A DNA stretch of 32,076 nucleotides from positions 1 through 32,076 of IMG/VR virus record IMGVR_UViG_3300002144_000328, one strand, 5' to 3'. The notes beneath the pieces were generated by a model. The model did not search any database and was not told the origin of the DNA. It worked only from the letters and a program-made list of their open reading frames with translations. Position numbers and translations under genes: made by a program. Each line of letters begins with the position of its first letter. Within the stretch, counting starts at the first letter, position 1. Below are positions 10,771 to 23,292 of the stretch, piece by piece. The DNA comes from a virus.

Positions 10771-11211
10771 TTATTTTCGTCCAGTTGAAGGTGTACTACT
10801 TATTTGATGTTCTGCTACACGTCTGCGCAAGTCTGAGGATGAAAAGCGATGTTCGCGTTTGTTGAAATATAGCAGGATACCACGCTTTTTACAAATATCC
10901 TTGCCCGTAAAATCTTTTTCCTTATACTCCTCTCCTAGTATTCTAACATCAATGTGATACATTGTCAATATGTCTTCAACATCTTTTTCACTAGAATAAG
11001 GAATAATTTCGTCTACATAACGAACACCTTTTAATTGTGTATATCGTTCTACAACTGTTTGAACTGGTGCATTCTTCTCTGGACGATCGTCTGACGGGTC
11101 CATCTGTAAGCCACATATTAAATAATCACATTGCTCTTTGGCTTCTCTGAGCATCTGCACATGGCCTGCGTGTAACAAGTCAAATGTACTAAAGGTTATA
11201 CCGTATTTCAT
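10771..11211 (-). CDS. Cytidylyltransferase, TagD/glycerol-3-phosphate type, 146 aa
   Basis: Nucleotidyltransferase of the HxGH family: FDLLHAGHVQML holds His14 and His17, RPEKNAPVQTVVERY and RFSSSDLRRR (the ISTT-like closing motif) complete the site. The enzyme would make a CDP-activated polyol or sugar such as CDP-glycerol; a different substrate (for example a sugar or heptose phosphate) cannot be excluded. Overlaps the UGD-like gene by ATGA, so the two enzymes are probably made together. Confidence 0.88.
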   Translation of the reverse strand: MKYGITFSTFDLLHAGHVQMLREAKEQCDYLICGLQMDPSDDRPEKNAPVQTVVERYTQLKGVRYVDEIIPYSSEKDVEDILTMYHIDVRILGEEYKEKDFTGKDICKKRGILLYFNKREHRFSSSDLRRRVAEHQISSTPSTGRK

Positions 11212-11954
11212 TTCTTTCTAATCCTGTCGTTATATTCAATAGCTTCTTTCAAAATAGTCATTATTGTTTCTGATTTGCTAACTCTTCCAGACTCTACAAA
11301 TGCTGCAGTATCCTTAGGAAAACAATGACCACCAAAGCCGCGCTCGGCTGTAACAACTGTATGGCTACTACCGACACGATCATCAGAAGTTACTAACTTA
11401 GCAACACTATCATAATCCACACCGCTTGCTTCGCATAAATCAAAAACTTGATTAAAGAAAGCAACCTTCAAAGCTAAAAAGCTGTTACGAGTGTATTTAG
11501 CAATAATAAGTTCTTCTGCAGTAACGATATTTATGCTAACACCAAGAGATGTTCTAAGAAGATCTGACCAGAAAGAAGTATCGCCGCCGCCGACCCAAAT
11601 AGTACTTTGATTCTTAAAGTCTTCCATAGCATGCTGAGCACGAAGGTATTCAGGTGAAAAGCTTACGTTGCTATAAGTCCTGTTAATAGTATCCCAACCT
11701 TCTAAACTAATCGTTGATTTGATTAATATAGGAATACCCGGCTCTACCATAGATATGCAGTCAATTACATTTGATACATCACAAGAACCGTCGGCTTGCA
11801 TTGGAGTTGATACGGCGATAACCACCGCGTCGGCTGCTCCATCAAAGTCTATACGATCTTTTGCTGGATCATACACATGTACATCGTGGTTAGATTCTAG
11901 AGCTAAAGCGTGTGCTTTACCGACAAATCCATACCCACATACTTGTATTTTCAT
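11208..11954 (-). CDS. Short UDP-glucose/nucleotide-sugar 6-dehydrogenase-like protein, 248 aa
   Basis: NAD-binding GYGFVG at residues 7-12, SPEYLR at 100-105, a central helical region with AKYTRNSFLALKVAF, and the catalytic GFGGHCFPKDT with Cys211. These are the key parts of enzymes that oxidise UDP-glucose or UDP-ManNAc C6 to the acid. The usual 390-450 aa enzyme has a C-terminal UDP-sugar binding domain, which is absent here: the protein ends about 37 residues after the catalytic Cys. The reading frame is intact, so it is a shortened form rather than a visible pseudogene. Substrate binding must be altered or supplied otherwise. Confidence 0.85.
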   Translation of the reverse strand: MKIQVCGYGFVGKAHALALESNHDVHVYDPAKDRIDFDGAADAVVIAVSTPMQADGSCDVSNVIDCISMVEPGIPILIKSTISLEGWDTINRTYSNVSFSPEYLRAQHAMEDFKNQSTIWVGGGDTSFWSDLLRTSLGVSINIVTAEELIIAKYTRNSFLALKVAFFNQVFDLCEASGVDYDSVAKLVTSDDRVGSSHTVVTAERGFGGHCFPKDTAAFVESGRVSKSETIMTILKEAIEYNDRIRKK

Positions 11955-14396: not shown

Positions 14397-15152
14397 TTAT
14401 TTGTAAAAGACTGTGCGCATTGTAATTGGATTATCACCTTGTGCGTGTGCAGCAATTTGTGTGTTGCAGTCACCCATAAGACCTTTAAGTAAAGCGCGTT
14501 CTAAATTAGATTGACGGTGGGTTAAATTGTGGTCGGCGCGTTTTACTATAGCAACAGAATCAATATCTGATTTCCTGCATTGTAAAGCTATAGTACCCTG
14601 ACCAATCGCAGGAATAATTGGCAGTATTTTATATGTTCTTTCAATACCCAGTGCTTGTAAACCGGCTTCTGCTAAAACAATAGCATCGTATTCACCAGCG
14701 TCGAGTTTTGCTAAGCGAGTATCGATATTACCTCTGATATGCTTAATTTTTACATTCATTGCAGAATACAATTCTTCTAATTGTGCTGTACGTCTAGGGC
14801 TGCTTGTGCCTAATGTAAATCCGTCAAATACATTTCCAATAATTACATCGTATGGGCTATTACGTTTTAGTGTTGCAGTAACTTCTAGATCTGGGTGTTC
14901 CCAATCTCCAGGCATATCCTTTAAGCTATGTACAGCAACATCGATTTCGTTATCAATCAAAGACATTTCTAACGCACTACAGAAGACACCTTTGCCGCCG
15001 ATTTCGTGAACTGGGACATCGGGGTTTAAATCTCCTATAGTGTTAATAATAACTATCTCAGTATGACACGCTATTGATTTTCTTGCAAGTTCTGCATATG
15101 CTAACGCTAACTTGCTACCTCTAACACCAATTCTTAGTACTCTGGTTGTCAT
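14397..15152 (-). CDS. hemC: Hydroxymethylbilane synthase (porphobilinogen deaminase), short form
   Basis: Polymerises four porphobilinogen units into hydroxymethylbilane. Visible family motifs: VRGSKLALA (residues 10-18), GGKGVF (52-57), SLKDMP with K78/D79, LGTSSPRR (114-121), HIRGNIDTRL (138-147), AIGQG (182-186), and Cys229 in LMGDCNTQIAAHAQ, the residue that carries the dipyrromethane cofactor. 251 aa against about 310: the sequence stops about 22 residues after that Cys, so most of domain 3 is missing. ATG 15152 is shared with the hemF stop as TAATG, with AAGGTGG upstream; a GTG at 15161 is less likely. Last gene of the hemE-hemF-hemC run. Confidence 0.95.
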   Translation of the reverse strand: MTTRVLRIGVRGSKLALAYAELARKSIACHTEIVIINTIGDLNPDVPVHEIGGKGVFCSALEMSLIDNEIDVAVHSLKDMPGDWEHPDLEVTATLKRNSPYDVIIGNVFDGFTLGTSSPRRTAQLEELYSAMNVKIKHIRGNIDTRLAKLDAGEYDAIVLAEAGLQALGIERTYKILPIIPAIGQGTIALQCRKSDIDSVAIVKRADHNLTHRQSNLERALLKGLMGDCNTQIAAHAQGDNPITMRTVFYK

Positions 15153-15946
15153 TATGCCCACCTTACTGTTGGAGGAAGACTCATAAGAATTGCATCCATG
15201 TTACCTCCTGTTTTAAACCCAAACCGAGTTCCTCTATCATACAAAAGATTAAACTCAACATATCTTCCACGTTTAATTTCAAGTATTTCTCTATCTATAT
15301 CACTGTAACCCATATTTAGTGTAGGTGTAATAATACTTCTAATTAGATCATTAAATGTTCGACCAATATCTTGTACAAATTCAAAGCTCATATCTTTCGG
15401 ATCATGGTACTCAAAGAATATTCCACCAACACCACGAGTTTCTTTACGGTGTGGTAAGTAGAAATATTCGTCACACGCTTTACTAAACTTTGGATAGTAT
15501 TCAAGATTGTAGTAGTCGCAAATGTTTTCTAATTTCTTATGATATGATTTAGTATCAAACGGCATACACGGAGTAACATCCATGCCGCCACCAAACCATT
15601 CTTTAGTACTTGTTTTCAGATAACGTGTATTGAAATGCATCGCTGGGGCATGAGGATTCCAAGGATGCAGAACAACACTAATGCCGGTAGCTTGATATCT
15701 ATCGTGCTCTTCAGTACCTGGAATTTCTTTTGCAAACTTTGGATCAAATTCAGATTCGATCTTAGAGAAGTTTACAGTTCCTTTCTCGAACACATCACCG
15801 TGTATAGTCATATGCTGCTGAGTCCAGCCTTTCTTGCCGTCGGTGTCTGAATGAACTTCCATTGGGCAATCGTGATCTATACTTGCTAACGTATGCGAAA
15901 TATCGTCTTGGAGTGTTTTAAACCACTCAGCATATAAATCAAACAT
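15152..15946 (-). CDS. hemF: Oxygen-dependent coproporphyrinogen III oxidase
   Basis: Oxidatively decarboxylates coproporphyrinogen III to protoporphyrinogen IX using O2. Strong match along the family: FEKGTVNFSKI (53-63), GISVVLHPWNPHAPAMHFNTRY (88-109), WFGGGMDVTP (117-126), RKETRGVGGIFFE (167-179) and the C-terminal GRYVEFNLLYDRGTRFGFKTGG and ILMSLPP. 264 aa; it ends shortly after the VRW motif, so it lacks the last 20 or so residues of longer bacterial forms. ATG 15946 overlaps the hemE stop (TAATG). An aerobic step, fitting an aerobic host. Confidence 0.97.
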   Translation of the reverse strand: MFDLYAEWFKTLQDDISHTLASIDHDCPMEVHSDTDGKKGWTQQHMTIHGDVFEKGTVNFSKIESEFDPKFAKEIPGTEEHDRYQATGISVVLHPWNPHAPAMHFNTRYLKTSTKEWFGGGMDVTPCMPFDTKSYHKKLENICDYYNLEYYPKFSKACDEYFYLPHRKETRGVGGIFFEYHDPKDMSFEFVQDIGRTFNDLIRSIITPTLNMGYSDIDREILEIKRGRYVEFNLLYDRGTRFGFKTGGNMDAILMSLPPTVRWA

Positions 15947-16926
15947 TATTCAAACCTATTCCTTACTTTATCAATAAAGTATTTAACATTAGCGTTTGGT
16001 GTTGTCTTATGTATGCCGTGACCAAGCCCACAGATCCAACCTGCAGTATTAACTCCGTCTAAACTATCGAGCCACTTATCTAATTCGTAATGATATAACT
16101 TATTTTCCAATAACATATGGTGTTCATCAAAGTTACCTTGAACAAATCCGTTAGTGTGAGTCTTCAATGTCTTAGCTAAATCTTGTGTAGAATCAATACC
16201 AATACCACACCAATTCATTTTCTTTACTTTCGGCAGACTACCTTTCGGTAAATCACGTGAATAATATCCTACGTTACCAATATCTGCAAGTTCTTCTAAC
16301 ATTGGGAGATACGTATTATTATAATAGTTTTTGCTACAATTGCGCAAGCCACTATCAAATATCATTACGACTTCGGCGCCAGCAACTTTCTGTGCTCGGA
16401 TGCTTCTAGCCATTAGTGGAATAATAACATCTTTAAGATACGTTGTTTTAAAGTCATTGCTTACTTTATTACCGCCTAGTGCATAGTTCAATACACTCCA
16501 AGGGCCACCAACAAAACCGATAAGACTCTTATTGCTAGGTAGCTTTTCTCGAGTAAGTTCCATAGCAGACTGTTGAAAAGATAAGTGATCCATTGCTTTG
16601 TCGAAGTCAGTGTGGTCTTTCCAATTATCTTCGTTAAGGTGAAATTCAAACTTAGGGGCTGGGTCAAACTTTAAAGGAAGACCCAGCCCCTCGACATGCC
16701 AAAGAATATCGCTAAATAAAATAGCAGCATCGAAGTCAAATTGTGTAATAGGTAACATAGCAACTTTAGAAGCAATCTGTGGTAGTTTACACATTTGCTC
16801 AAAATTGTACGATTCTTTTATTTCCATGTATGTTGGCTGATATCGGCCAGCTTGTCTCATCATCCAAATAGGAGGACACGGTTGCTCTACTCGATTAACA
16901 GCATTAGTAAATTTATTTGCGTCCAT
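15946..16926 (-). CDS. hemE: Uroporphyrinogen III decarboxylase
   Basis: Removes four carboxyls from uroporphyrinogen III to give coproporphyrinogen III, the step that commits flux to heme or chlorophyll rather than siroheme or B12. MRQAGRY holds the substrate-binding Arg24 and Arg28; Asp73 in ILFSDIL is the central catalytic-type Asp; GFVGGPWSVLNY has the Tyr148; GLGHGI has His303. At 326 aa it is nearly full length. ATG 16926 with GAGGA, 8 nt spacing, inside the end of the metallophosphoesterase gene. First of three overlapping heme genes. Confidence 0.97.
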   Translation of the reverse strand: MDANKFTNAVNRVEQPCPPIWMMRQAGRYQPTYMEIKESYNFEQMCKLPQIASKVAMLPITQFDFDAAILFSDILWHVEGLGLPLKFDPAPKFEFHLNEDNWKDHTDFDKAMDHLSFQQSAMELTREKLPSNKSLIGFVGGPWSVLNYALGGNKVSNDFKTTYLKDVIIPLMARSIRAQKVAGAEVVMIFDSGLRNCSKNYYNNTYLPMLEELADIGNVGYYSRDLPKGSLPKVKKMNWCGIGIDSTQDLAKTLKTHTNGFVQGNFDEHHMLLENKLYHYELDKWLDSLDGVNTAGWICGLGHGIHKTTPNANVKYFIDKVRNRFE

Positions 16927-17461: not shown

Positions 17462-17980
17462 TTATTCCCAACGATAGTAAACATGCTTGCCGATTGTGCC
17501 AACCATTTGAAGACTGTCAGCCCAATATGGATCTACATATGTTGCGTGGTAGTGTGTTGCGCCTTCTGTAATGCCACGATATTTACCTAGTGTTATCATA
17601 TCCCAAGCAATACTTTGAGCTTCGTTCCAACGATCCATATCATGTGGTACATCTTCTTTACCATCGCAATACCAAGAAAATTGGCAATCACTACGGCCTG
17701 GTTTGTAACCGTCTTGAACAACTTCACAAATACTACTAGGATATCGCCTATCTAGACTTCTATTAAGAACAACATCTGCAACCGCTGCTTTATCGGCTAG
17801 GTTGCTGCTGCGTGCTTCGTAATAAATGTTTAACGCAAGGCATTCTGACGCTTCTTCTTGCGCTTGAAATACGGCTTGCGTGATAGCAGTGTTTTGTGCT
17901 TGGGCTTTAGAATGCAATGGAATTAATACTAAAGCTGCAGCTGCGGTCATACTCATTGCTGTACTGATAATGTTTTTCAT
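17462..17980 (-). CDS. Exported SleB-type cell wall hydrolase, 172 aa
   Basis: Signal peptide with a hydrophobic core (AAAALVLIPL) and AxA cleavage around residue 28. Mature part matches the Hydrolase_2/SleB domain: ECLALNIYYEAR with the catalytic-type Glu55, AAVADVVLNR, CEVV, CQFSWYCDG, ATHYHATYV and WA. Cleaves peptidoglycan from the periplasm. It is far from the lysis block at 29325-31882, so it may serve a different job, such as wall remodelling or superinfection exclusion. ATG 17980 with AAGG upstream. First gene behind promoter 18009-18037. Confidence 0.9.
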   Translation of the reverse strand: MKNIISTAMSMTAAAALVLIPLHSKAQAQNTAITQAVFQAQEEASECLALNIYYEARSSNLADKAAVADVVLNRSLDRRYPSSICEVVQDGYKPGRSDCQFSWYCDGKEDVPHDMDRWNEAQSIAWDMITLGKYRGITEGATHYHATYVDPYWADSLQMVGTIGKHVYYRWE

Positions 17981-18037: not shown

Positions 18038-18273
18038 CAGTTATTTATGTTATTTAGCAAGTTTTTTATGCGCCAAAGCATAGTTTTTGTGTTAACATCA
18101 TCTACCCAATAGCTTTCATTTTCAGTCAAGTCTTTGAGCATCTCGAGAAGCATATTGTTATCGGTCCGCAGAGAATCATTGTCCCTGCGGTACTCAGCTT
18201 TTTCTCTCTTATGATGATCGATTTCTAGTTGAAGACCTTCAACCGTTCTTTCGTTTACTTTTAGTATTGCCAT
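18034..18273 (-). CDS. Coiled-coil hypothetical protein, 79 aa
   Basis: Residues 10-52 (GLQLEIDHHKREKAEYRRDN...LLEMLKDLT) form a clear coiled coil with heptad-like leucines; the end has YWVDDVNTKTMLWRIKNLLNNI. Function unknown; could be an adaptor or structural oligomer. ATG 18273 lies within the end of the GT17 gene (35-nt overlap). Confidence 0.75.
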   Translation of the reverse strand: MAILKVNERTVEGLQLEIDHHKREKAEYRRDNDSLRTDNNMLLEMLKDLTENESYWVDDVNTKTMLWRIKNLLNNINNC

Positions 18274-19831
18274 TCTTTACACCATATTTCTCGAAGAATG
18301 CATAATCGCTTGCATACGCTCTTTTAATGAAGTTAATTTGCTCTTCAGAAAAGTCTTGATGCATAATATCTTTATGAGTAACATTATGCTTTTGATCTAC
18401 ACTAAAGTAACTATTAACATCTTCGCGCTTTATAACTTCGATATGTTCAAAGCTATCAGTATCAACGAATCTGCACTGAGGATGGAAATGATGAACCTGT
18501 TGTCCACCTGTAATCTTATTCAAATTGCGAAAGAACAAATCAATCTTTTCTTGTTTTGAAATAGAATTAATGTCTTTATCAAATGTACTAAATATATCTT
18601 TGCCGTAATCAGCATATCGTTGCTTATCTGTAAGGTAAACATTAATCAAAGAAATAAATCTATCAATTGGATCGGTAAAGATCATAATAGGTTTTTTCTT
18701 TTCTTCGATAAACTTCTTATATAATCTAGTGCCACGCATAACCTGCATACGGCCTGGATAACTTTCTTTAATAGTTACTGAGCAACTCCTAGGAACTTCA
18801 AACCAAATCTTACTACTGTTCTCTGGCTCTAGATCATACATTAGAGGCCAATCTAGTTTTTGGCACCAATAGCAATTGCAATCATTGAAAGCGTATGTTT
18901 GTTCAAGCTTAACTTCTGGCAATAAGAAGTCTTTAATAAGCGGGGTCTCAAAGATTATTTCAGGAAGTTCAGAATGTGGATATCTTTTAAGAATATGATC
19001 TTCATTACTATCAGGTGCAACGTTACCTTCAACTGGCTCTGTAGTATCTACAAACTGTTTATAGTCTGAGTATCCACCAGTCTTGTGCCACTTAAAGCTG
19101 TCAAACGCATGTGCGAATGAATCTGCTTTAGTTTGGCGCTGGGCATTAGTACCCATCCACGCAAAGTGCCATCCCATATCTTCTTGTTGAATGCCGCCGT
19201 CAGTAGGGAAACGAATTGGCATATGAATATTACCACAACGAATATTACTAATCTTACAGTGATTGATTTGCTCTTTTGTTGCAAAGAACATAGCGCGCTT
19301 CCAAATTAATGGAGCACCATTGCGATGATGGACACGCAAGTCAGCACGCCCTTGCAAGTATACTAACGGAATTTTAACGATAATATTGGGATGATTATGA
19401 GCCATCTTTGCTAACCACTTAATGTGCTTAGGATTAATAATTTCATCAGCATCGCCATAGATGAATACGTCACGCTTATCAAAATCACGTAATGCAGTCA
19501 TTACAGCATCCTTTTGCAAGCGTTCACGAACACGAGCGTACAAAGAATCTTTATTAGTAGCGTTATTACCAGCGTTACGTCTATCGATCTCTAAGATTTC
19601 AAGGTCTTCAGTATCGGGGATATCATGCTCTACATAGATAATCTTTTCAATAGGAAGACCAAGTTTACGAGCAACCTCTGGAAATTTACGTTCTACAGGT
19701 TGACCAGCATGAGTCTTGTTTGATTCAACAATGATAAATTTATCTACGTGATCTTTTAAAAGGTTTACACGTAAATAAAGTAGTTCTTCTCCGTAAGGAG
19801 CAAACCAAGGAAAACAATCTACAACTTGCAT
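18239..19831 (-). CDS. Glycosyltransferase GT17 fused to a sulfotransferase domain, 530 aa
   Basis: Residues 1-300 match the GT17 family (beta-1,4-GlcNAc transferase type): DCFPWF...EELLYLRVNLL at the start, FIIVESNKTHAG, and the metal-site-like YGDADEIINP (125-134). Residues 340-520 look like a PAPS-dependent sulfotransferase: a 5'-phosphosulfate loop at EVPRSCSVTIK (345-355) and a 3'-phosphate motif TDPIDRFISLI (386-396), then a C-terminal DFSEEQINFIKRAYASDYAFFEKYG typical of Sulfotransfer_2. This suggests one protein that adds a sugar and then sulfates a glycan. Acceptor unknown. ATG 19831 with AAGAGG, 6 nt spacing. Confidence 0.88.
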   Translation of the reverse strand: MQVVDCFPWFAPYGEELLYLRVNLLKDHVDKFIIVESNKTHAGQPVERKFPEVARKLGLPIEKIIYVEHDIPDTEDLEILEIDRRNAGNNATNKDSLYARVRERLQKDAVMTALRDFDKRDVFIYGDADEIINPKHIKWLAKMAHNHPNIIVKIPLVYLQGRADLRVHHRNGAPLIWKRAMFFATKEQINHCKISNIRCGNIHMPIRFPTDGGIQQEDMGWHFAWMGTNAQRQTKADSFAHAFDSFKWHKTGGYSDYKQFVDTTEPVEGNVAPDSNEDHILKRYPHSELPEIIFETPLIKDFLLPEVKLEQTYAFNDCNCYWCQKLDWPLMYDLEPENSSKIWFEVPRSCSVTIKESYPGRMQVMRGTRLYKKFIEEKKKPIMIFTDPIDRFISLINVYLTDKQRYADYGKDIFSTFDKDINSISKQEKIDLFFRNLNKITGGQQVHHFHPQCRFVDTDSFEHIEVIKREDVNSYFSVDQKHNVTHKDIMHQDFSEEQINFIKRAYASDYAFFEKYGVKNGNTKSKRKNG

Positions 19832-19832
19832 A

Positions 19833-20420
19833 TTAGCCTCTTCTTTCCAAAACTGTTAACCCATTGTTATTAGACTTATGCATTTTAAACGTCCAGTGTG
19901 GATTTTTAATTATAAAATCAATAATTGCTGGAAGTAAACCTTGACCAGCCATAGCTTTACGGTCGGGGTTTTTAGCCCAATCTGCTTGCTCATCACGTAC
20001 GCCGTAAGTATGTGTATCATGAAAAGCTAGATATTTACGAGCTGCGTTACCATGCAAATGGAGTTCATCACGTAATTGCTTTTGAGAATGCCAAGTATCG
20101 ATAAAAATCATATCAGTTGGTTCAATAAGAATATTAAGAGTATTACCTTTTTGATATTCAACATCTTTACCAACCTTACGAGCCATTTTAAATAAGTCCA
20201 TAAGAGGATTATGAATTTCTAAATCATATGCTCTGAGTGTTACCGGAGCTTTCAGAAAAGCTTTTGTGCTAGACCCAAACCTACTACCAAACTCGGTAAT
20301 ATGTGTACAATCTTGAGCTAGTGTGCTTAAATCATGCAAGTGCTCGTTAATATCAGACTTCGCATTTAGCTCAGTCTGATATTCGCTTTCGATTACTCTA
20401 TTCCAATCTTTTAAATTCAT
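19833..20420 (-). CDS. Class I SAM-dependent methyltransferase-like protein, 195 aa
   Basis: ITEFGSRFGSSTKAFL is the SAM-binding glycine loop, LRAYDLEIHN the second strand acid, MIFIDTWHSQKQLRDEL the central motif, and YLAFHDTHTYG a metal-site-like HDxH. This combination resembles Methyltransf_24/cephalosporin-hydroxylase-like proteins of sugar clusters. I choose ATG 20420 (GGTGG, 8 nt, ATGA overlap with the RmlB-like stop) over a GTG at 20432. Probably modifies a sugar made or transferred by its neighbours. Confidence 0.82.
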   Translation of the reverse strand: MNLKDWNRVIESEYQTELNAKSDINEHLHDLSTLAQDCTHITEFGSRFGSSTKAFLKAPVTLRAYDLEIHNPLMDLFKMARKVGKDVEYQKGNTLNILIEPTDMIFIDTWHSQKQLRDELHLHGNAARKYLAFHDTHTYGVRDEQADWAKNPDRKAMAGQGLLPAIIDFIIKNPHWTFKMHKSNNNGLTVLERRG

Positions 20421-21442
20421 ACGTCTAACCACCGTCTATTTTCTAGTGTCCATTTAACAACCTCAGCAATACGTTGATGTACTGGTTTAGGTTCCCATCC
20501 CATTTGTTTCATACGCTCCCCGCTTAGTGCATAACGCAAATCATGACCAGGACGGCTGCTATGGAAATCCATAAATTGGTAATTCAATTCTTTACCTTGT
20601 GCGTCAGCAATCATCTGAGCAAGCTCTAAATTGTTTAATTCAGTTGCACCACAAATATTAAACTTAGGGCACTTAACACCAGTATTATTTGTAGTATTAA
20701 GAGTAAGATTAGATTGAAGCAAGAATAGTGTAGCATCTGCTACGTCTTCGGCATGGATATAATGGCGCGAGCCAGGAATTGTTTTTGTCTCATCAGAGTG
20801 AATTGTTACCATGCCGCCATCTCGTACATTACGGATAGTCATAGGAATAAACTTCTCAGGATGCTGACGCTCACCAAACACATTCATAGTATGCGTAATA
20901 TAGATTGGCATATTATATGTATTTTGGTATGCTACTGCGAGTTCTTCGCCACCTGCTTTAGATGCGCTATAAGGATTAGTACTATTATAACGGTCATATT
21001 CGTCGTATTTTACTCCGTCAGGTGCTGGCCCAAATACTTCATCTGTTGAGAAATATAAGAAGCGTTCAAGGTTTGTTTGTTTACGCGCAAACTCTAAGAT
21101 GTTGCATGTGCCAACAACGTTATCCATTACAAATTCCATTGGGAAGTCGATAGACCTATCAACGTGAGAACCAGCTGCTAAGTGAGCAATAACATTAATT
21201 GGACCAATGTCAGCAACGAGCATTGGGTTGAATTCAGCTTTCAGATCATGGAAAATTGTGCGTAAACGCTTGCGTTCTTCTGCTGTTCTTTCTTGCAAAA
21301 GATCATGAAGACGATTAAGATTTCCGCTGTAGTCTAAACGATCTACAGTAATAACTTCCCAATCGGTGGTTTTTAGTACTTGGTTGATCAGGTGGTGAGC
21401 AATAAAACCACCGCCACCTGTAATAAGTATTCTCTTTGTCAT
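20417..21442 (-). CDS. dTDP-glucose 4,6-dehydratase-like (RmlB-type SDR), 341 aa
   Basis: Extended short-chain dehydrogenase: NAD-binding TGGGGFIAHH at residues 8-17, HLAAGSHVDRS, the catalytic STDEV (132-136) with the Asp-Glu pair of dehydratases, and YSASK (158-162). Makes a 4-keto-6-deoxy sugar nucleotide in the RmlB reaction; another NDP-sugar dehydratase or epimerase is possible. Near full length. ATG 21442 with GGAG, 5 nt spacing. Adjacent methyltransferase and GT17-sulfotransferase suggest a surface-glycan path. Confidence 0.88.
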   Translation of the reverse strand: MTKRILITGGGGFIAHHLINQVLKTTDWEVITVDRLDYSGNLNRLHDLLQERTAEERKRLRTIFHDLKAEFNPMLVADIGPINVIAHLAAGSHVDRSIDFPMEFVMDNVVGTCNILEFARKQTNLERFLYFSTDEVFGPAPDGVKYDEYDRYNSTNPYSASKAGGEELAVAYQNTYNMPIYITHTMNVFGERQHPEKFIPMTIRNVRDGGMVTIHSDETKTIPGSRHYIHAEDVADATLFLLQSNLTLNTTNNTGVKCPKFNICGATELNNLELAQMIADAQGKELNYQFMDFHSSRPGHDLRYALSGERMKQMGWEPKPVHQRIAEVVKWTLENRRWLDV

Positions 21443-21926: not shown

Positions 21927-22103
21927 TCATGATATTTTCTTCCAATACTTGTTATCCCATTCTGTAGGCAATTGACCGGCGTATTCTTCACCGGTTTCCA
22001 TATCTACTAATTTCCATTTTGCGGGACATTTTGTTTTAATTTGAAGATGCTGTGGAATAAGAAATTCAGGTACTAGTGTGCCGTCTATTAATTTCCTATC
22101 CAT
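21927..22103 (-). CDS. Small conserved-type phage protein, 58 aa
   Basis: Central [19 protein letters not shown], then [10 protein letters not shown]. The 'W-x-L-V-D-x-E-T-G-E' core resembles small proteins I recall from cyanophage-like genomes. ATG 22103 overlaps the ALAS stop by 8 nt; the GAAGG lies directly before the ATG, so the start is less certain. It fills the gap between ALAS and DUF454. Confidence 0.7.
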
Positions 22104-23292
22104 CCTTCAGCACTTCTTTCAATGCTTCTACTAATTGTATCATCATTACATCGTCGTGGTAAGGTGTAGGTGCGATTCTTAGTCTTTCAGTTCCAGCTTC
22201 TACAGTAGGAGCGTTAATTGCTTGAATGTAAATACCGTATTCATTCAGAAGACGATCACTAGCAGTTTTACATTTAAACGCATCATTGACCATTACTGGC
22301 ACAATATGCGTACACGCGTCTTCATGCACTGGGATACCAGCTTCTGCAAGCATTTGTTTAAGTTTTACAGCTTTTTCTTGATGTGCATCTCTTAAGGAAG
22401 AATGGTCGCGGAGGTATCTGATTGATGCAAGAGCTCCTGCGCAGATGACTGGGCTTGTTGATGTCGTAAATATGAACCCACTAGCAACACACCTAATAGC
22501 ATCAACGATATTGCTGTTACCGACAATATAGCCACCTTGGACTCCAAATGCTTTTCCGAGGGTTCCATTTAGAATATCGATCCTTTCTGATAATCCTAAC
22601 TTTTCACAAAAACCTCCGCCTTGTGGACCGTATAATCCAACAGCGTGAACTTCATCGATATATGTCATTGCGTTGTATTTATCTGCGAGATCACAGATAG
22701 CTTCCATAGGACTGATATCGCCATCCATAGAATAAACAGATTCAAATACAATACAAGGAATTTGGTTATTTATATTGCATTGAAACAGCGCTTCTTCTAG
22801 TTCGTCTAAATTATTATGTTCAAAAATCATTTTATCTGCACGGCTATGTGACATACCAACGATTAAAGATGCATGGTTTTTACTATCAGAAACAAAACAA
22901 ATATTAGGAATAATTTTACTTAATGCGATAAGTGTCCATTCGTTAGCAACATAAGCGCTTGTAAATAGCAAAGCTGCATCTTTTTTATGTAGACTTGCAA
23001 GCTCTCGTTCTAGTGTTACGTGGTATTGAGATGTGCCACCAATATTACGAGTACCACCAGAGCCAGAGCCTGATTGATCTAGTGCAGTGTGCATAGCGCT
23101 AATCACATATTCATTTTGGCCCATACCTAGATAATCATTTGAACACCAATTTACGATATTCTTTGGTGCGTATTTTCCGTACCAAATAGCTTCAGGGAAA
23201 GCACCACGCTCTCTAAGAATATCATTAAATATTCTATATCGGCCATCTTTTTTAAAATCTTTTATTACAGCGTTAAAATATTCTTCATACAT
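22096..23292 (-). CDS. hemA: 5-Aminolevulinate synthase (ALAS, Shemin route)
   Basis: PLP enzyme that condenses glycine with succinyl-CoA into 5-aminolevulinate, the entry and usually rate-limiting step of tetrapyrrole synthesis in alphaproteobacteria. Motifs: WCSNDYLGM (49-57), [14 protein letters not shown] (75-88), His140 in [16 protein letters not shown] (213-222) and the PLP Lys247 in TLGKAFG. The C-terminal HIVPVMV and [13 protein letters not shown] separate it from the related KBL and BioF enzymes. At 398 aa it is full length, without a heme-regulatory N-terminal extension. ATG 23292 shares its A with the nrdB stop (TAATG). Confidence 0.97.

Follow-up and report, generated by a model that had tools for sequence, protein, structure and literature searches.

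An uncultured T4-like phage carries a single gene in which a GT17-type GT-A glycosyltransferase is almost certainly joined to a domain with the Sulfotransfer_2 fold, to judge by sequence comparison and structure prediction. The gene lies on the minus strand at 18239..19831 of the window, the 32,076-nucleotide stretch analysed here, which is a single IMG/VR virus record (IMGVR_UViG_3300002144_000328); all window coordinates given below refer to the same strand. The frame starts with ATG and runs uninterrupted for 530 amino acids; read on the plus strand, this interval holds many stops. The phage origin is evident from the T4-like genes around the fusion (ribonucleotide reductase, thymidylate synthase, DHFR, primase, DNA ligase and RNase H), and a 47-kb contig comes from the same virus, with 99.97% identity across 29 kb. 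Both domain types are already known in phages, and the fusion combines two known enzyme families in a new architecture; our literature search, which covered open-licence papers, found no report of a GT17-sulfotransferase fusion. We believe that the gene probably encodes a glycan-modifying enzyme in which the GT17 domain would add a sugar and the C-terminal domain would sulfate.

The assignment of the N-terminal half (residues 1-305, 18917..19831) is based on a Pfam match, the AlphaFold model, Foldseek and stand-alone homologues. Residues 16-149 score 31.1 bits for GT17 (PF04724), where the cut-off is 26; this match spans only model positions 86-201 of 348, and relatives of the protein score 32-62 bits. 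The whole-protein AlphaFold model has a mean pLDDT of 88, with the GT17 domain mostly above 85. Searched against the PDB with Foldseek, it matches GT-A enzymes in its N-terminal half, and the best 50 matches of the full-length model cover that half only. Viral proteins named GT17 in BFVD resemble the same half, with TM-scores by target length up to 0.84. Alignment places the DxD motif, the nucleotide-sugar/metal site of GT-A enzymes, at D127-A-D129 within GDADE (19445..19453), and both aspartates are invariant in 32 aligned sequences. Stand-alone GT17 homologues of 319-320 aa exist (L052-L055). In more distant viral proteins (L057, L058, L060, L059, L064) GT17 has other fusion partners: GT2/GT25-like domains and TPR in some, DUF6445 in others, either alone or together with a methyltransferase.

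The C-terminal half was assigned to a Sulfotransfer_2-like domain (residues 315-517, 18281..18889) from hhalign, Foldseek and the stand-alone homologues L166, L168 and L169-L171. Taken alone, the window protein has no Pfam match to PF03567 in this half. At the level of the family, 8 of 24 members match Pfam Sulfotransfer_2, the best with an E-value of 9.9e-5, and relatives scanned singly mostly fall under the PF03567 cut-off (20.5 bits at most, against 22, in a one-by-one re-scan). For the comparison of profiles, 45 C-domains were aligned with hhalign to a profile built from 12 PF03567 proteins of a class-level genome sample, 11 of them cellular and one from a Rhodobacteraceae MAG, and the probability was 96-97% across 178-208 columns. 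The loop, PxxRxxS, H.PQ and the C-terminal DY.F/DF.F motifs are in register in this alignment. Reversed and 20 column-shuffled profiles reached at most 0.6%, the N-domain reached 0.1%, and no unrelated family (P-loop kinase, epimerase, methyltransferase-like, hydrolase) exceeded 2.1%, while the positive control, viral canonical sulfotransferases, reached 98.1%. Against five viral canonical sulfotransferases the C-domain profile gave a short, low-probability match only. We attribute this to the narrowness of that set, since the broader cellular PF03567 set resolved the similarity.

Sequence searches of the PDB matched nothing with the whole protein as a single sequence and gave chance matches only with the family profile, because the relatives there are too distant. 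Structure goes further. The AlphaFold model of the C-domain has a pLDDT of 85 and a pTM of 0.83, and all 50 of the matches that Foldseek listed from the PDB are sulfotransferases, led by NDST1 and 3-O-sulfotransferases. Individually these matches are weak (E-values from 0.014 to 0.7, TM-scores below 0.3), partly because of distance. The predicted sulfotransferase fold therefore rests on agreement across all 50 listed matches and on no single E-value. It is the fold that the original prediction expected here when it read the 530-residue frame as GT17 with a C-terminal sulfotransferase domain. Any other predicted fold would by its own account have refuted that reading, and the model did not give one; the GT17 match, the family-level and profile-profile similarity and the AlphaFold model together uphold that reading of the architecture.

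According to a review of polysaccharide sulfotransferases, two residues define their core, a Lys or Arg of the PAPS-binding loop and a Ser that sits on the 3'-phosphate helix, and the PF03567 consensus is PxxRxxS (PMC11625862). PAPS-binding-like loops had been proposed at residues 345-355 and 386-396, and both were placed correctly: they correspond to F344-E-V-P-R-S-C-S-V-T-I-K355 and D387-P-I-D-R-F-I-S394, each strongly conserved across relatives. The first belongs to the PAPS-binding-loop equivalent W343-FEVPRSCSVTIK-E356 (18764..18805; motif as in PMC11625862), whose core PRSCSVT is residues 347-353, with Arg348 at the position of the catalytic Lys of PF03567. The second is the 3'-phosphate-site equivalent (18650..18673), which keeps PxxRxxS and has T, not Arg, at residue 386. 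A further motif, HHFHPQ (H447-Q452, 18476..18493), aligns with HF.PQ of PF03567 and holds a candidate catalytic base. In 48 distinct sequences R348, P388, R391 and S394 are invariant and together would make up the core as PMC11625862 defines it; T353 and histidines 447 and 448 of HHF.PQ are likewise invariant. At the domain junction there is an invariant C318-x-C320-x-W-C323 motif (18863..18880), a possible metal or disulfide site. This CxCxWC is missing from the canonical PF03567 proteins in our collected set.

Two positions of the donor site differ from the canonical enzymes in every member of the family. The loop Lys is Arg348 in 48 of 48 distinct sequences, and the Arg before DP, which opens R(D/N)P and is present in nearly all canonical PF03567 members of the collected set, is T, S or A in the same 48 of 48. 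These replacements could mean that the C-domain keeps the sulfotransferase fold and is non-catalytic, serving the GT17 half as an acceptor-binding or scaffolding module. GT17-only versions at the same locus also favor this idea, as the GT half can evidently do without the C-domain. We take this to be the main rival to an active enzyme but a rather unlikely one. The invariance of R348, T353, P388, R391, S394 and the two histidines, together with a dN/dS of about 0.10 for the C-domain, speaks against it, as does the persistence of sulfotransferase-only genes without any GT17, which is hard to explain if the domain is only an accessory. Replacement of the Lys by Arg is also tolerated in active enzymes such as Mt Stf0, and Arg is found in PF13469 (PMC11625862). 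An alphaproteobacterial PF03567 protein, L086, has an Arg loop as well (VPRAAGMS), and it is the top-scoring relative when the C-domain model is searched against the PF03567 set. Since the loss of the Arg before DP is fixed and the domain is under strong purifying selection, the altered site resembles a constrained modification and not decay. In our opinion the C-domain is probably catalytically active as a sulfotransferase.

That the R(D/N)P arginine is missing from all 48 sequences calls for caution about the use of PAPS. The domain might be an active enzyme that transfers a group from a different donor, such as APS in place of PAPS, now that the 3'-phosphate arginine is gone. The loss is specific and fixed family-wide with invariant residues next to it in the site, and the redesign of sulfotransferase sites for APS has been described (PMC11625862). 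However, the 3'-phosphate motif is otherwise retained as PxxRxxS, and redesigned enzymes are not natural precedents, so in our opinion a changed donor is improbable. The boldest form of the idea would be a phage-specific bifunctional glycosyl-/sulfotransferase whose 3'-phosphate arginine has been permanently exchanged and which uses another donor, such as APS, to produce a sulfated surface or virion sugar. We regard it as a long shot. If it were true, the donor chemistry would be one so far unseen among known PF03567 enzymes. An active sulfotransferase remains our preferred reading, and the conserved altered donor site is a natural test of the purpose of the 3'-phosphate arginine.

The full fusion is found in 60 IMG/VR contigs from many samples, 57-100% identical, and the phages that bear it are mostly marine. 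Nearly all contigs with enough flank have the same gene order: (NrdB), ALAS, DUF454, RmlB-like, methyltransferase-like, fusion, SleB hydrolase. The dN/dS of the GT half is about 0.08, near that of the C-domain. Because the fusion recurs in independent contigs from many samples, with dN/dS of about 0.1 in both halves and with conserved neighbours, neither chance nor an error of assembly accounts for it. INPHARED holds no full-length relative of the fused protein, one match to the GT half at 26% and no match to the C-domain. Matches in the genome_contigs collection (L065-L067) are three contigs of one Rhodobacteraceae MAG (Water_Bin34). Since these share the phage synteny, they are most likely phage DNA binned into a bacterial genome; we considered the fusion as a cellular gene and rejected the idea, as these three contigs of one MAG, all with phage synteny, are the only matches in that collection.

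The original prediction had placed the fusion beside RmlB-like, methyltransferase and other sugar genes, and this is roughly correct. The dTDP-glucose 4,6-dehydratase-like (RmlB-like) NDP-sugar enzyme (20417..21442) matches TIGR01181 with 243 bits, under the cut-off of 365. The ORF directly upstream of the fusion (19833..20432, 199 aa) is methyltransferase-like by eye only, with no match in Pfam, PHROG or NCBIfam. Both are conserved neighbours, as are the downstream SleB-type cell-wall hydrolase (17462..17980; PF07486, 3.6e-20) and 5-aminolevulinate synthase (22096..23292; TIGR01821, 568 bits against a cut-off of 339). ALAS in phages has already been published (PMC11480375). The window has four heme-pathway genes in all, hemC, hemF, hemE and ALAS (14397-16926 and 22096-23292), and hemF is present in only 2 of 13 related contigs. 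Further away, a UDP-glucose dehydrogenase-like ORF (11208-11954) lacks two parts of the profile, the usual ~70 residues at the N-terminal end and the C-terminal domain.

The two halves also occur alone. The GT17 gene stands by itself at the syntenic locus in L052-L055, and the sulfotransferase-like gene does so in L166 and L168 and at other sites in L169-L171. It follows from GT17-only and sulfotransferase-only forms sharing one locus that the fusion protein is modular. We considered a split gene, in which a separate sulfotransferase follows the GT17-only gene, and found none in the ~3 kb after that gene in L052-L054. The sulfotransferase-only rows of the C-domain tree are placed apart from the fused groups, which are well supported; this placement is compatible with a single fusion event or with the contrary. 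One might argue from the separate occurrence of the halves, and from the separate sulfotransferases also present in these phages, that the two act on different substrates and were fused for co-expression only. We find this very improbable. The fusion is kept nearly family-wide at a locus of NDP-sugar genes, which is what sequential steps on one glycan would predict, and both halves come from carbohydrate-enzyme families.

Those separate sulfotransferases are canonical stand-alone PF03567 proteins (PKTASSS / RDPVDR type), found in several genomes of the fusion group and mostly beside glycosyltransferase-like genes. The fused C-domain is a diverged relative of these enzymes. The longer contig of the window virus encodes one of them (L183:10322-11011), and a 221-kb contig with the fusion has two tandem copies. 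The L183 gene is part of a three-gene cassette (L183:9692-11690) of a DXD glycosyltransferase, the canonical PF03567 sulfotransferase and a GT25-like protein. The presence of separate sulfotransferases in several genomes makes sulfated glycans a plausible theme of this phage group. As for the supply of PAPS, an ORF in 5 of 13 related contigs exceeds the Pfam APS_kinase cut-off and adjoins a small nucleotidyltransferase in the two contigs examined (L188:2826-3651, L189:2074-3157). We make no claim that this ORF is a source of phage-made PAPS, for generic P-loop kinase models match it equally and it is far under the NCBIfam adenylyl-sulfate kinase cut-offs. The P-loop kinase and nucleotidyltransferase might work together in PAPS supply or, alternatively, in nucleotide/NAD salvage.

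Under the two-step reading that we prefer, the GT17 half would transfer a sugar from a nucleotide-sugar donor to a glycan, and the C-terminal half would sulfate either that sugar or the one next to it, with PAPS or a related donor as the source. Arg348 would stand in for the usual Lys and one of the HHFHPQ histidines would be the base, while the sugar may be provided, or altered further, by the RmlB-like enzyme and the methyltransferase-like protein. Whether the halves work in sequence on the same glycan is in our opinion an evenly balanced question. That the target is a surface glycan, with host surface polysaccharide or LPS and a virion glycan as the likely candidates, we would put at about even chances, and the purpose may be surface masking. 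Phage-made sulfated glycans are essentially unexplored, and here a widespread, mostly marine T4-like lineage couples sugar transfer with a sulfotransferase fold in one polypeptide at a fixed locus. Sulfated sugars, if they are on infected cells or virions, might change phage adsorption or superinfection. It is important to realize that natural GT-only, sulfotransferase-only and fused forms at one site make the question of function testable.

The type enzyme of GT17 is MGAT3, the bisecting GlcNAc-transferase. The GT17 family (PF04724; MGAT3), including viral GT17 proteins, has the GT-A fold and the GDADE DxD motif in common with the phage fusion, but the phage protein is joined to a second catalytic-fold domain. 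PF03567 enzymes, including the stand-alone phage members, share PxxRxxS, H.PQ, the C-terminal motifs and the fold with the C-domain, which differs from them in its loop Arg, in S/T/A for the R(D/N)P Arg, in the extra CxCxWC segment and in its fusion to GT17. Sulfotransferases described from marine phages are likewise in marine phage genomes, but they are of the PF13469 type and stand alone, and the role of phage sulfotransferases has been called unclear (PMC10580990). A comparable two-domain architecture is that of carbohydrate sulfotransferases such as NDST1, an N-deacetylase and N-sulfotransferase, in which a sugar-modifying domain is also joined to a sulfotransferase for two successive steps. 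NDST1, however, is eukaryotic, has another first domain, and couples deacetylation, not glycosyl transfer, to the sulfotransferase.
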